Source of the DNA: Parvivirga hydrogeniphila
GTDB taxonomy: Bacteria; Actinomycetota; Coriobacteriia; Anaerosomatales; Anaerosomataceae
NCBI RefSeq assembly: GCF_023371205.1
Contig: NZ_JAMCCO010000001.1
Span: 120,662 to 184,661 of the forward strand
Length of the DNA: 64,000 nt
Direction of reading: 5' to 3'
Made by a program: the position numbers and the translations under genes. The notes under the pieces are model-generated. The model was not told where the DNA came from and made no database searches. It saw only the letters and a program-made list of their open reading frames with translations. Shown here piece after piece: positions 48,572-53,670 of the stretch (positions are counted from its first letter, which is position 1; each line of letters begins with the position of its first letter).

Positions 48572-49108
48572 CTAGTTCATGCCGGGAAGCGTGCGCGACT
48601 TGAGCAGCCAGTCGTTCCCGTCCTTCACGAACGTCCACAAGTACTGGAAGCTGCCCCCGGCCATCGAGGCCGTGGCGAGCACCTGGGTCTCGCCGTCCTT
48701 CTCCGTCACGTTGTCGATCGTGTACGAGCTGATGCCGTAGCCCTTGAGCTGCTCGGCGAACGCGGCCTCGTCCTGCGCGGCTTTCTTGTCGGCAGGAAGC
48801 AGCTCGTAGGCAGTCGCGAAGTCGCCCTTCACCACTGCGTCGAAGTACGCCTTCACGTGGTCCTCAGGGGTCTTGCCTGCTACGACCTTGGTCGCGGTCT
48901 TCGGATCGAACGGCACATCGGCAGGCATGCCAGCCGGCATGCCGCTCGTGCCGTTGGCCGCCGTGCCGTTGGCGGGCGCGGCCGGCGCGGCCGGCTTGTT
49001 CAACACCACCAGTCCGACGATGACCCCGACGAGCACGACGACCACCGCAGCGAGCGCAATGACGACTTTGCTCTGACCGCCGCTGGCGGCCTGTGGTGCT
49101 TCTGACAT
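48572..49108 (-). CDS. Membrane-anchored protein with NTF2-like domain
   Basis: 178 residues. A membrane helix (about 15-35) is followed by a Pro/Ala/Gly-rich linker and a C-terminal domain (about 80-178). That domain has PEDHVKAYFDAVVKGDFATAYELLPADKKAAQDEAAF, typical of an NTF2/DUF4878-like cone fold, and ends YLWTFVKDGNDWLLKSRTLPG. Function unknown; probably faces outside. ATG 49108 lies 12 bases from GGAACG, a weak ribosome site. Confidence 0.72.
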   Translation of the reverse strand: MSEAPQAASGGQSKVVIALAAVVVVLVGVIVGLVVLNKPAAPAAPANGTAANGTSGMPAGMPADVPFDPKTATKVVAGKTPEDHVKAYFDAVVKGDFATAYELLPADKKAAQDEAAFAEQLKGYGISSYTIDNVTEKDGETQVLATASMAGGSFQYLWTFVKDGNDWLLKSRTLPGMN

Positions 49109-49225
49109 GTGCGTTCCTTTCGATCGCTTGCCTGAACAGCGCGAGACGCGCCGCACGAGCATACGCCCCTGGCTGCATCCGGGCAACCACGCGCGCACAC
49201 CGCGCTCGGCGAGTACAATCAGCAC

Positions 49226-49897
49226 ATGCCACGCCAACGCAGCCTGTTCGACATCATCGGGCCCGTGATGATCGGACCCTCGTCCAGCCACACCGCGGGT
49301 GCTGCGCGCTTGGGTGCGCTTGCGCGCGCCATCGTCGGCGGCACGCCGCGGCGGGCCCGGGTTACGCTGCACGGCTCCTTCGCCACGACCGGCCGTGGCC
49401 ACGGCACCGACCGAGCACTCGCCGCAGGACTGCTTGGCATGCGCCCCGACGACGAACGCCTCCCGGACGCGCTCGAGCTCGCAAACGCGTCCGGGCTGGA
49501 GGTCACGTTCGTATCGGGCGATCTCGGCGACGTGCATCCGAACACCGCACGGCTCGAGCTCACCGACGCCTTCGGGCGTGCCCACCTCGTGCAGGGCTCG
49601 TCGCTCGGCGGCGGCGATGTGGTCGTCACGCTCATCGACGACTTCCCCGTCGAAGTCACCGGCGAGCTGCCGCTTCTGGTGGTCGTCCACCACGACCAGC
49701 CTGGCGTGGTGGCGGCCGTGACCGCTCGCCTGGCGGCCGACGTCATCAACATCGCGTCCATGCAGGTCTCCCGTGAGCGGCGCGGCGCCCGTGCGCTCAT
49801 GCTCATCGAGACGGACGAGCGCGTCCCCGACGAGGCGATCGCCGGCATCGCGGCCATCGACGGCGTCGTCGAGGTGCGCTCCGTGCCGGCCGTGTGA
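49226..49897 (+). CDS. sdaAB: L-serine dehydratase, iron-sulfur dependent, beta subunit
   Basis: 223 residues. The serine dehydratase beta domain starts SLFDIIGPVMIGPSSSHTAGAARLG (1-30). A C-terminal ACT domain (about 145-220, LLVVVHHDQPGVVAAVTARLA) is the regulatory part that senses serine in related enzymes. With the alpha subunit it makes pyruvate and ammonia from L-serine using a 4Fe-4S cluster. The separate alpha/beta form is typical of Gram-positive anaerobes. ATG 49226 follows the promoter-like TACAAT. Confidence 0.94.
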   Translation: MPRQRSLFDIIGPVMIGPSSSHTAGAARLGALARAIVGGTPRRARVTLHGSFATTGRGHGTDRALAAGLLGMRPDDERLPDALELANASGLEVTFVSGDLGDVHPNTARLELTDAFGRAHLVQGSSLGGGDVVVTLIDDFPVEVTGELPLLVVVHHDQPGVVAAVTARLAADVINIASMQVSRERRGARALMLIETDERVPDEAIAGIAAIDGVVEVRSVPAV

Positions 49898-49911
49898 CGG
49901 AAGGTTCCCGC

Positions 49912-50802
49912 ATGTCGTACGCGTCCTTCGCCGAACTCCTCGCTGCGGCCGACGACCACGGCTCGATCTCTGCGGCAGCCATCGCGCTCGAATGCGAGGA
50001 GACGGGCGCTGACGAAGCACAGGTGATCGCCCGGTTGTCGGACGCGCTCGCGGTGATGGAAGCGGCAGTCGAGCGCGGGCTTAGCGAGGAGCTGCGCTCC
50101 CGCTCCGACCTTGTCGGCAGATCAGGGCGCGCGCTCGCAGCATCCGCGCCGCGCCTGACCGATGCGACGTTCGCGACCGCGCTGTCGCGGGCCCTCGCAG
50201 GCGCAGAGGTGAACGCGTGCATGGGGCGTGTGGTCGCCGCGCCAACCGGCGGCGCCTCGGGCGTGCTGCCGGCCGTGCTGCTCACCGCTGCCGAACGGCT
50301 GGGCGCGCCGCGCGAGCGGGTGGTGGCCGCGCTCGCTGCCGCCGGAGCCGTCGGCGGGGTGATCGCGGCGCGGGCCACTCTCTCGGGAGCCGCCGGTGGA
50401 TGCCAGGCCGAGACCGGGGCCGCGGCAGCAATGGCGGCGGCGGCCGCAGTCGAGCTCGCGGGCGGCACGCCGGAGCAGTCCGGACACGCGGCCGCGTTCG
50501 CGCTCCAAGGGCTCTTGGGGCTCGTCTGCGACCCGGTCGGCGGGCTCGTGGAGGTGCCCTGCGTCGCCCGCAACGCGACTGCGGTGGCCGTGGCACTGGC
50601 CGCGATCGAGATGGCGCTCGGCGGCCTGGCGTTCCCGATTCCTGTCGACGAGGTCATCGATGCGATGGGGCATGTCGGTCGCAGCCTTCCCCCTTCGCTT
50701 CGCGAGACCGCGCTCGGCGGCCTGGCGGCGACGCCGACGGGGCGCACCCTTGCATCCTCGCTTGCCAGCGGGTATCGTCCGCACAGTGACGAAGGGGAGT
50801 AG
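49912..50802 (+). CDS. sdaAA: L-serine dehydratase, iron-sulfur dependent, alpha subunit
   Basis: 296 residues. The cluster Cys are in VNACMGRVVAAPTGG, GAAGGCQAETG and LVCDPVGGLVE, with the SxxG-like segment between. ATG 49912 with GGAAGG upstream is preferred to GTG 49894, which overlaps the beta stop. The stop codon TAG (50800-50802) is part of the GGGGAGTAG of a manganese riboswitch, so the 3' end of the gene and the aptamer share bases. Confidence 0.94.
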   Translation: MSYASFAELLAAADDHGSISAAAIALECEETGADEAQVIARLSDALAVMEAAVERGLSEELRSRSDLVGRSGRALAASAPRLTDATFATALSRALAGAEVNACMGRVVAAPTGGASGVLPAVLLTAAERLGAPRERVVAALAAAGAVGGVIAARATLSGAAGGCQAETGAAAAMAAAAAVELAGGTPEQSGHAAAFALQGLLGLVCDPVGGLVEVPCVARNATAVAVALAAIEMALGGLAFPIPVDEVIDAMGHVGRSLPPSLRETALGGLAATPTGRTLASSLASGYRPHSDEGE

Positions 50803-50890
50803 CGACCTCGCCCGTGCGAGGGAGGCAGGCCGACAATCCCGGGCTTCGGCCCCGGTCCTGCCGACGCGAGAAGCGACGCAAGACCTTCGG
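50791..50890 (+). promoter_or_regulatory. yybP-ykoY manganese riboswitch
   Basis: The conserved 5' element GAAGGGGAGTAGCG (50791-50804) and the 3' element GACGCAAGACCTTCGG (about 50874-50889) match the yybP-ykoY consensus, which senses Mn2+. The paired arms around them include GGCAGGCCGAC and CGGTCCTGCCGAC. It sits directly before a P-type ATPase, a known yybP-ykoY target class, and overlaps an intrinsic terminator, so Mn2+ would permit expression. Confidence 0.85.
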
Positions 50891-50911
50891 CGATGACGCC
50901 GGAGGTCTTTT
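50881..50911 (+). terminator. Riboswitch-controlled terminator before the P-type ATPase
   Basis: AGACCTTCGGCG pairs with CGCCGGAGGTCT (12 bp with one wobble, loop ATGA), then TTTTCC. Its left arm shares bases with the aptamer 3' element, so the two folds compete. Confidence 0.8.
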
Positions 50912-50928
50912 CCTTTGAGGAGGCGCTG

Positions 50929-53670
50929 ATGGACGAGAGCCGCGAGACCGCGTGGCACGTGATGCCGGTGCGCGAGGTCGCCGCCGCGCTCGGGACCGAC
51001 CCTGAGTGCGGCCTTTCGGCCGAGGAGGCGGCTCGACGCCTGGCCGAGCACGGGCAGAACCTGCTCGCACCGCCGGTGAAGGTCCCCGCCTGGAAGAAGT
51101 TCCTCGCGCAGTTCAACGACTTCATGATCTGGGTCCTCATGGCAGCGGTCGTGATCTCGGCGATCGAGCATCAGCTGCTCGAGGCCTTCGCCATCACCGC
51201 GATCCTGCTTCTGAACGGCTTTCTGGGCTTCATCCAGGAGTACCGCGCCGAGCAGGCGCTCGAGGCGCTGAAGCAGATGGCGGCACCGACGGCGACCGTG
51301 GTGCGCGACGGCGTCGAGCAGGAGGTGCCCGCTGCCGAGCTCGTGCCGGGCGACGTCGTGATCCTCGAGGCCGGCGACAAGGTGCCGGCCGACGGCAGGC
51401 TCATCGAGGCGGCCTCGCTCAAGGTGGACGAGTCCTCCCTCACAGGCGAGAGCCGCCCTGTCTCCAAGCACGCTGATGCGGAGTGCGAGCTGCACTGCGC
51501 GCTCGGCGACCGCTCGACGATGGTGTACGCGGGCACGACGGTCGCCGTCGGACGCGGCCGCTTCATCGTCACCGAGACCGGTCAGGCCACCGAGATGGGC
51601 CGCATCGCCGACCTCCTCGCGCAGCAGGAGGAGGAGGCGACCCCTCTGCAGCGCGAGCTCAAAGGCGTGGGCAAGCGCATCGCCACGCTCATCCTCGCCA
51701 TCGCAACGATCGTCTTCGCCGTCGGCGCGTGGCAGGCCTACAACGCGTCGGGCGAGACATCGCTTTTCGCCGCGCTCGCCCACGAGGCCTTCCGCGCACG
51801 GCTGACCGTGGCGTTGCTCGTGGCGATCTCGCTCGCAGTCGCGGCCATCCCGGAAGGGCTTCCCGCGATTGTGACCGTCGCTCTCTCGCTCGGGGTCCGC
51901 AAGATGGCCGAGCACAACGCGATCGTGCGGAAGCTCCACGCGGTGGAGACGCTCGGGTCCACCACCTTCATCTGCTCGGACAAGACCGGCACCATCACGA
52001 GGAACGAGATGGCCGTCAGGCGCGTCGTCGTTGGGTTGGATGGGGCCGACATCTTGCCCGACTGGGCGCTCCAGCCAGACGACCTGACGCCGGACCCCGC
52101 CGGCCTCGACCTGCTCCTCGAGATCGCGGCGTCGTGCAATGATGCCCACTTCACGGCCGACGGCACGCTCGTAGGAGACCCCACCGAGACGGCGCTCGTC
52201 GTGGCCGCCGACGCGCTCGCCGAGTCGCGCCGGCGACCCCGCCGCGTCGCGGAGATCCCGTTCGACTCCGAGCGCAAGCGCATGACGACCGTGCATGTCG
52301 TCGATGGCAGGCCAGTCGCGTACGTGAAGGGCGGCGCCGACGTCGTGCTCGGCCTGTGCACCCACGCGCTCGTTCGCGGGAAGCGCGTCGCGCTCGATGA
52401 GACCATGCGCCACCGCATCCTTGCTATCAACACGGAGCTCGCCGCGTCTGGGTTCCGTACGCTCGCCATCGCGTTCCGCGAGCTCGACGACGCGACAGTC
52501 GACGAGCCGAGCGCGGTGGAGCGCGACCTCACCTACGTCGGCATCGTGGGCCTCGTCGACCCCCCTCGCCCCGAGGCCGCCGAGGCCATCGCTACGTGCC
52601 GCCGCGCGGGCATCGAGGTCGCGATGGTCACCGGCGACCACGCGCTCACCGCACGCGCCATCGCTCAACAGGTCGGCCTCAGCGACGATGGCGAGGTGCT
52701 CACCGGTGTCGAGATCGAACGCATGTCCGACGACGAGCTGTATGAAGCGGTGGCTCGGACGCGCCTCTATGCCCGCGTCGACCCCGCTCACAAACTGCGC
52801 ATCGTCGAGGCCCTGAAGCGGCACGGGCACATCGTGGCCATGACCGGCGACGGCGTGAACGACGCGCCTGCCCTCAAGCGGGCCGACATCGGTGTGGCGA
52901 TGGGCCGCGTCGGAACGGACGTCTCGCGCGAGGCGGCCGACATGGTGCTCGCCGACGACAACTTCGCGACGATCGTGGAGGCGGTGCGCATGGGCCGCGC
53001 CGTCTACGACAACCTCAAGAAGTTCATCCTCTTCTTGCTCTCGTGCAACGTCTCTGAGGTCCTCATCATCTTCGTCACGACGTTCTTCGCCGATCGGCCG
53101 GCGCTCCTGCCGCTGCAGATCCTGTGGATCAACCTCATCACCGACGGTTTCCCCGCGCTCGCGCTGGGCGTGGATCCGGCCTCGCCGCGGGTGATGGAGC
53201 GGCCTCCCCGCGATGCGAGCGAGTCGGTGCTCGCCCGCAAACGTCAGGCGCAGGTGCTTTGGCAGGGCGCTCTCATCACGGTCGCCGGCCTCATCATGTA
53301 CGTGTGGGCCGACCTGTTCATGCCCGGCCACTCGTTCGAGCGCGCGCAGACGATGCTCTTCTCGGCGATGGTGCTGGCCCAGCTCGTCCACGCGTTCTCG
53401 TTCCGGTCAGAGAGCCGCAGCATATTCAGCGCGTACTCGCTCAAGAACCGGTGGCTGAACGTCGCCTTCGCGGGCTCGCTCCTCTTGCAGCTCGGTGTCG
53501 TCTACCTGCCGCCGCTGCAGCGCGTGTTCAAGACGCAGCCGCTCTCGGTCTCGGACTGGCTCGCGGTGATCGCCGCCGCGATCGTGCCGACGGTGCTCAT
53601 CGACATCACGAAGCGCCTGGTCGCGCGGTCGTCCGCCCGCTCGGCTCCGACGGAGCCCGTTTCGGCCTGA
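50929..53670 (+). CDS. P-type (PII) cation ATPase, probable Mn2+/Ca2+ exporter
   Basis: A 913-residue P-type ATPase of the SERCA/PMR1-like group. SSLTGES is the actuator motif, AAIPEGLPA the helix-4 site, DKTGT has phospho-Asp at 351, and TGDGVNDAP the hinge. ILWINLITDGFPALALGVD in helix 6 holds the Asn and Asp of the ion site. Because of the manganese riboswitch upstream, Mn2+ export is the most likely main function, with Ca2+ also possible. ATG 50929 follows TTGAGGAGG; an earlier ATG at 50893 lies in the terminator loop and was rejected. Confidence 0.92.
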   Translation: MDESRETAWHVMPVREVAAALGTDPECGLSAEEAARRLAEHGQNLLAPPVKVPAWKKFLAQFNDFMIWVLMAAVVISAIEHQLLEAFAITAILLLNGFLGFIQEYRAEQALEALKQMAAPTATVVRDGVEQEVPAAELVPGDVVILEAGDKVPADGRLIEAASLKVDESSLTGESRPVSKHADAECELHCALGDRSTMVYAGTTVAVGRGRFIVTETGQATEMGRIADLLAQQEEEATPLQRELKGVGKRIATLILAIATIVFAVGAWQAYNASGETSLFAALAHEAFRARLTVALLVAISLAVAAIPEGLPAIVTVALSLGVRKMAEHNAIVRKLHAVETLGSTTFICSDKTGTITRNEMAVRRVVVGLDGADILPDWALQPDDLTPDPAGLDLLLEIAASCNDAHFTADGTLVGDPTETALVVAADALAESRRRPRRVAEIPFDSERKRMTTVHVVDGRPVAYVKGGADVVLGLCTHALVRGKRVALDETMRHRILAINTELAASGFRTLAIAFRELDDATVDEPSAVERDLTYVGIVGLVDPPRPEAAEAIATCRRAGIEVAMVTGDHALTARAIAQQVGLSDDGEVLTGVEIERMSDDELYEAVARTRLYARVDPAHKLRIVEALKRHGHIVAMTGDGVNDAPALKRADIGVAMGRVGTDVSREAADMVLADDNFATIVEAVRMGRAVYDNLKKFILFLLSCNVSEVLIIFVTTFFADRPALLPLQILWINLITDGFPALALGVDPASPRVMERPPRDASESVLARKRQAQVLWQGALITVAGLIMYVWADLFMPGHSFERAQTMLFSAMVLAQLVHAFSFRSESRSIFSAYSLKNRWLNVAFAGSLLLQLGVVYLPPLQRVFKTQPLSVSDWLAVIAAAIVPTVLIDITKRLVARSSARSAPTEPVSA

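Follow-up and report, generated by a model that had tools for sequence, protein, structure and literature searches.

A probable manganese riboswitch with a compact 5' border, sharing its aptamer TAG with the stop codon of sdaAA in Parvivirga hydrogeniphila

At the end of the serine dehydratase gene sdaAA of Parvivirga hydrogeniphila, we found a triplet with two roles: TAG at 50800-50802 is an invariant triplet of a probable manganese riboswitch aptamer and also the stop codon of sdaAA. The window, meaning the whole stretch of 64,000 nucleotides that was analysed, most probably holds (at a probability of about 0.8) an ordinary transcriptional manganese ON riboswitch with a compact 5' border and an intragenic promoter, placed before a probable Mn2+-exporting ATPase. 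Promoter, structured RNA and the tail of a protein would here be packed into common bases. The shared stop codon reads as a by-product of this compaction, neat DNA packing rather than demonstrated new control.

The riboswitch class itself is already known. What is new is the predicted intragenic promoter, the stop positions in the relatives, and a synonymous freezing limited to promoter and aptamer. In the open-access literature, we found no description of a riboswitch that overlaps an upstream stop codon or gene in this arrangement. The coordinates of the features are collected in Table 1.

Table 1. Features of the sda-riboswitch-ATPase region (positions of the window)
Feature	Position	Strand	Basis
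Probable sda -10, TACAAT	49214..49219	+	6 nt before the sdaAB ATG; promoter role predicted
sdaAB, beta subunit of serine dehydratase, with an ACT domain	49226..49897	+	TIGR00719, 205 bits (cut-off 161); Pfam SDH_beta, ACT
sdaAA, serine dehydratase alpha subunit, stop TAG 50800-50802	49912..50802	+	TIGR00718, 269.3 bits (cut-off 243.2); PF03313, 237 bits
Probable -35, TTGCAT, in sdaAA codons	50750..50755	+	TTGn3-N16-18-TAnnnT comparison
Probable -10, TATCGT, in sdaAA codons (Tyr-Arg)	50773..50778	+	Invariant in 4/4 genus genomes
Manganese (yybP-ykoY) aptamer	50790..50889	+	R1 match (44.2 bits, E 2.9e-9); fold
P1.1, CGAAGG with CCTTCG	50790-50795 with 50884-50889	+	Fold
L1 consensus GGGGAGTAG, holding the shared TAG	50794..50802	+	Pattern search
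L3 GACA, within CCGACAAT (50830-50837)	50832..50835	+	Order-level alignments
3' consensus GCAAGACC	50878..50885	+	Pattern search
Intrinsic terminator GACCTTCGGCG-ATGA-CGCCGGAGGTC-TTTT, 5' arm holding the 3' strand of P1.1	50882..50911	+	Fold, terminator scan
P2A-type cation ATPase (PMR1/SPCA- and LMCA1-like)	50929..53670	+	TIGR01522, Pfam domains; ATG 50929, GAGGAGG 50917-50923

The aptamer and its switch

To identify the aptamer, we used a covariance model (R1) made from 55 diverse pattern-matched manganese riboswitches of many phyla, with the window and its genus excluded. These 55 were picked among at least 123 matches to the pattern, found in 120 stretches of the collected genomes; a Coriobacteriia sequence (L099) is among the 123 matches listed and not among the 55. 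R1 had a single match in the whole 64 kb, at 50790-50889 (44.2 bits, E 2.9e-9). A search with the pattern GGGGAGTAG-N(55-85)-CAAGACC likewise gave one match in the window, and none in 100 shuffles. The whole riboswitch, from the start of P1.1 at 50790/50791 to the end of the terminator T-run at 50911, agrees with the original prediction, which had placed a manganese riboswitch at 50791-50911 and is borne out by the R1 match.

Two marks of the class were found in the window: the L1 consensus GGGGAGUAG at 50794-50802, and an L3 with the conserved CA, here as GACA at 50832-50835. GACA and AACA forms of L3 occur in other phyla too. In the alignment of the 55 sequences behind R1 (A1, n=55), the outermost P1 pairs vary on both sides (the first and the second pair in 18/55 sequences each), and the base pairs of P3 likewise vary on both sides. 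The predicted fold of the window has P1, P2, P3 and a short P4. Across seven order sequences, 100% of the cells of P1 and of P3 were paired, as were 85% of those of P2, where three pairs showed double changes; P4, as drawn for the window, was paired in 38%. The aptamer core was invariant in these seven sequences, as was GACA (7/7).

A search of 69 genomes of the order with R1 gave 51 places, spread over 44 genomes, and an ATPase relative followed the riboswitch in 42 of the 51. One of the nine without it (L140) has only 269 bases present downstream. When the search was extended to the class (396 genomes), 42 of the 43 genomes with a match belonged to the order. GAGTAG was present in 51/51 R1 matches of the order, although the invariance of GGGGAGTAG is partly built in, R1 being made from pattern-selected sequences.

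The Rfam model RF00080 scored 14.4 bits on the window against a cut-off of 45, giving no match at the gathering threshold and a weak one at a permissive threshold. This gathering score is a database threshold and not a property of the class. On nine control loci with typical manganese riboswitches, including Lysobacter, Acinetobacter and Clostridia, RF00080 reported two at E 0.1 or better; thus, it is too narrow to exclude the window from the class, and the miss is a fault of the Rfam model. Judged by its sequence, the region 50790-50911 is well supported as a member of the yybP-ykoY manganese riboswitches, and we expect it from its class to respond to Mn2+. Manganese control is probably under-annotated in this order, the Rfam model missing its common riboswitches.

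The terminator has its arms at 50882-50892 and 50897-50907, followed by T at 50908-50911, and in the computed folds it excluded P1.1 and was excluded by it. The full RNA reached -68.5 kcal/mol in the terminator form, compared with -56.2 kcal/mol when P1.1 was enforced. When the RNA was folded at stepwise lengths, P1.1 was part of the best fold at 3' ends from about 50888 to 50902 and was lost from 50904. Over seven order sequences, including the window, 97.8% of 91 terminator cells were paired, and a stem using the aptamer end was found in 21/51 order places. Without Mn2+, the 3' strand of P1.1 would pair into the terminator (50882-50911) and transcription would stop. With Mn2+, the docked aptamer would keep P1.1 together (50790-50795 with 50884-50889), and with the terminator blocked the ATPase would be transcribed.

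For the downstream gene, Pfam domains confirmed a P-type ATPase. Its best family matches were to calcium pumps of the PMR1 and SERCA types (TIGR01522, 748 bits for a cut-off of 798; TIGR01116, 679 bits), both slightly under their cut-offs, and the closest PDB structures are Listeria LMCA1 (lmo0841) and human SPCA1. SPCA/PMR1 pumps carry Mn2+ as well as Ca2+. The assignment of Mn2+ to this ATPase, also part of the original prediction, gains support from the riboswitch class together with the gene type. We regard it as a probable Mn2+ exporter, the metal being assigned only through the riboswitch and Ca2+ or both being possible. A longer start at ATG 50893 is unlikely, as it sits in the terminator loop.

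A promoter and a stop codon at the 5' border

The genes upstream encode the two subunits of a serine dehydratase. SdaAA passed the TIGR00718 cut-off as the alpha subunit of an iron-sulfur L-serine dehydratase, and ATG 49912 is preferred over GTG 49894 as its start. Before sdaAB, TACAATCAGCACATG (49214-49228; TACAAT-CAGCAC-ATG) is identical in 4/4 genus genomes, and the sdaAB mRNA is probably leaderless. In 49100-51100, the terminator of the riboswitch was the only terminator-like site found, with no second one on the + strand between sdaAA and the ATPase. Since the sda genes have a promoter-like element of their own and no other terminator, read-through RNAs from the sda promoter are likely. 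The riboswitch terminator is also the sole visible terminator of the sdaAB-sdaAA operon, so transcription passing from sda into the ATPase should be Mn2+-dependent.

A promoter for the riboswitch itself very probably lies within sdaAA, where TTGCAT-N17-TATCGT spans 50750-50778 in the last codons of the gene. These hexamers have 7/12 consensus bases, and a strict sigma-70 scan of 49100-51100 gave no promoter; the call therefore rests on comparison across the 51 places of the order. In 23 of them, TTGn3-N16-18-TAnnnT was present in the 50 nt ahead of P1, compared with 0/876 control windows; TAnnnT at -22 to -5 from P1 was present in 50/51 places, compared with 70/2436 control windows. Such promoter-like elements, at fixed spacing, also precede riboswitches without sdaAA nearby. 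Transcription is predicted to start at about 50785, 6-8 nt past the -10 and a few nt before P1.1, so that the RNA would include the TAG without transcription of sdaAA. This start lies upstream of 50802, in keeping with the original prediction, against which a start past that position would speak.

The third codon positions of sdaAA point to the same elements. Among four genus members they were identical in 8/9 sites within the -35, the -10, P1.1 and L1, in 3/18 outside these elements in the same 79 nt, and in 58/200 in the 600 nt upstream (Fisher p 0.0004 for the synonymous-site contrast). Five of the nine element sites belong to the riboswitch and four to the promoter, with three of the four promoter sites identical. 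Synonymous constraint in the sdaAA tail appears only where promoter or aptamer lies, and the comparison suggests that these elements explain it.

The sdaAA stop had been placed within the conserved GGGGAGTAG, and this was confirmed: TAG 50800-50802 ends the SdaAA frame. Numbered from the first G of GGGG, the stop is at +6, the aptamer TAG, in 4/4 genus members. Elsewhere in the order it stands at -18 (G006), -47 (G008), -51, -53, about -55 (L154, where it is also a TAG), -58 and -77. Twelve of the 51 order places have sdaAA upstream, on the same strand, one of them (G020) at a distance of 1.4 kb; so does G055, where R1 missed the aptamer, though the aptamer start is visible. Eight other order genomes (seven and G055) have sdaAA close upstream of a manganese riboswitch without stop overlap, so whatever links both genes does not require the overlap.

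In the relative G006, the sdaAA stop is a TAG inside the -10 hexamer, TAGCGT, where the window has TATCGT. Its codons after the stop read, in frame, CGT ACG CAC TTT GAA GGG GAG TAG; those of the window after TAT read CGT CCG CAC AGT GAC GAA GGG GAG TAG. A single base therefore decides whether SdaAA ends there or nine residues later at the aptamer stop. In the SdaAA tree, G008 adjoins the genus (95/92) and G006 is placed elsewhere, with weak forks. The tree gives no order of states; TAG-to-TAT in the -10 may be the actual step.

Putting these elements together, the promoter in the last sdaAA codons (-35 at 50750, -10 at 50773) would start the riboswitch RNA at about 50785. UAG 50800-50802 would be present because the L1 loop needs it. 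The sdaAA frame crosses the promoter and would use the aptamer triplet as its first in-frame stop. This outlines a simple route: every aptamer of the class has the UAG, and an upstream gene losing its own stop would be caught by the sensor, leaving the sensor unharmed.

Stop sharing is not presented here as a common event. Among the 123 matches listed, five have a TAG-frame of at least 80 codons, and one of these five (L080) has a Pfam match. TAG-frames of up to 463 codons also exist at other places among the 51 of the order; the eight that were scanned had no Pfam match and have the look of spurious GC-rich frames. Leader peptides ending at the UAG were rejected, since no more than a few nt separate the predicted transcription starts from P1.1. 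One genus and one distant contig (L080) showed the exact overlap.

Other readings of the overlap

An Rfam score under the cut-off is what we would see if the aptamer-like sequence were decayed or a product of chance, and if a terminator for sdaAA were the only functional part. This is hardly credible beside an independent R1 match, a core invariant in seven sequences, a covarying P2 and an ATPase relative downstream in 42/51 places. If the riboswitch is real, the sda operon could still supply all of its RNA, with no promoter of its own, making serine catabolism and Mn2+ export one operon. sdaAA is close upstream in 11/51 order places and in G055, with G020 as a twelfth at 1.4 kb, and the strict promoter scan was negative. 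However, promoter-like elements stand at a fixed distance before nearly every riboswitch, including those without sdaAA near, and synonymous constraint extends over the -35 and the -10, which makes a purely operonic origin of the RNA very unlikely.

The original prediction had also proposed that ribosomes finishing sdaAA cover the aptamer and might thereby interfere with Mn2+ sensing. A terminating ribosome covers about 15 nt on either side of its stop codon. The sdaAA stop lies within L1, 4 nt past the 5' strand of P1.1, so both P1.1 and L1 are in reach, and on sda read-through transcripts such cover is possible. A ribosome at the UAG would then block docking, favour the terminator and shield the ATPase from sda transcription regardless of Mn2+. 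In line with this, no other + strand terminator was found between sdaAA and the ATPase, the sda promoter-like element is kept in 4/4 genus members and the overlap is fixed in all four. As the main story, however, the proposal gained no support: the riboswitch very probably has a promoter to itself, and RNA from it would lack the sdaAA start codon and the ribosomes that go with it. Moreover, other sdaAA-riboswitch pairs have no overlap, release would presumably be brief compared with the ~100 nt still ahead of RNA polymerase, and most of the conservation in the tail codons falls on sites that DNA or RNA elements explain. We consider ribosome interference unlikely, and equally doubtful or slightly more so that sdaAA translation serves as a second, Mn2+-independent input, holding the exporter off on sda transcripts and leaving Mn2+ control to the intragenic promoter. 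The effect depends on the timing of the ribosome relative to RNA polymerase, and nothing in the data calls for it. If it were true, one RNA sensor would be read differently on two transcripts, and translation of one gene would gate the riboswitch of the next. An ordinary ON riboswitch with a compact 5' border stays our preferred reading.

Related units and comparison with known systems

Within the order, several genomes (G007, G012, G022, G024, G026 and G033) carry two or three manganese riboswitches. Two kinds of riboswitch-ATPase unit were seen (L142, L148, L151, L153-L155, L158 and others). Where the ATPases have ~60-88% identity, the unit mostly has a terminator sharing P1; where they have ~37-49% identity, mostly no stem was found, and these units may act on translation. 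At L143, L169, L173, L176, L179 and L183, the available downstream stretch has no ATPase relative, and thus other target genes are likely. Besides, the contig L140, from a genome of the same family, has a sub-threshold match to the Rfam ALIL pseudoknot at 418-531 (28.7 bits, cut-off 50). The ALIL pseudoknot is usually a frameshift element of insertion sequences.

A likeness to the stop sharing described here is found in L080, a goat-gut Clostridia contig (4740-4960). The aptamer TAG of its manganese riboswitch ends the upstream frame, and a terminator-like stem comes next. The frame is that of a Na:alanine symporter (PF01235, E 1.6e-90). It differs from the window in phylum and in upstream gene, and being a single contig, its tail may not be the usual end of the gene. 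L080 is a possible independent case.

One known system close to the window is the yybP-ykoY riboswitch of Lactococcus lactis yoaB, yoaB being a P-type ATPase. As in that riboswitch, the window has L1 as GGGGAGUAG, L3 with CA and the discriminator A, and GCAAGACC. It also has a 3' strand of P1.1 common to the switch helix and an intrinsic terminator (PMC11087558), and a metal transporter gene downstream. P1.1 of L. lactis is described as critical for antitermination, its 3' segment going to the terminator without ligand (PMC11087558). The Mn2+ site is described there as formed by the phosphates of G9, U39, C40, U44 and C45 and by N7 of A41, the residue that discriminates Mn2+ (PMC9190785). L1 is reported to adopt a sarcin-ricin-like motif (PMC6754395).

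By alignment, G9 would map to 50797, A41 to A50835, and the UAG to 12-14 of the L. lactis numbering. U39 is replaced by A in the window, which looks tolerable, the contact there being a phosphate. The shared UAG triplet would thus be structural, L1 forming the sarcin-ricin-like motif. Unlike L. lactis yoaB, the window has a GC-rich Coriobacteriia form, with GACA in L3 where L. lactis has GUCA. Its P1.1 and L1 double as sdaAA codons, its UAG is a used stop, and its probable promoter lies inside the upstream gene.

Finally, the B12 riboswitches of Mycobacterium tuberculosis resemble the window, as far as they are described in PMC11260477, in having an actinobacterial leader that is partly coding, the termination of this coding part bearing on the gene downstream. 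In that description, the leader contains a short uORF; one RNA serves for its translation and for the gene behind it, to which the uORF is coupled (PMC11260477). In the window, by contrast, what is encoded is the last part of a complete enzyme gene that has a separate promoter, and the arrangement does not imply a restart.
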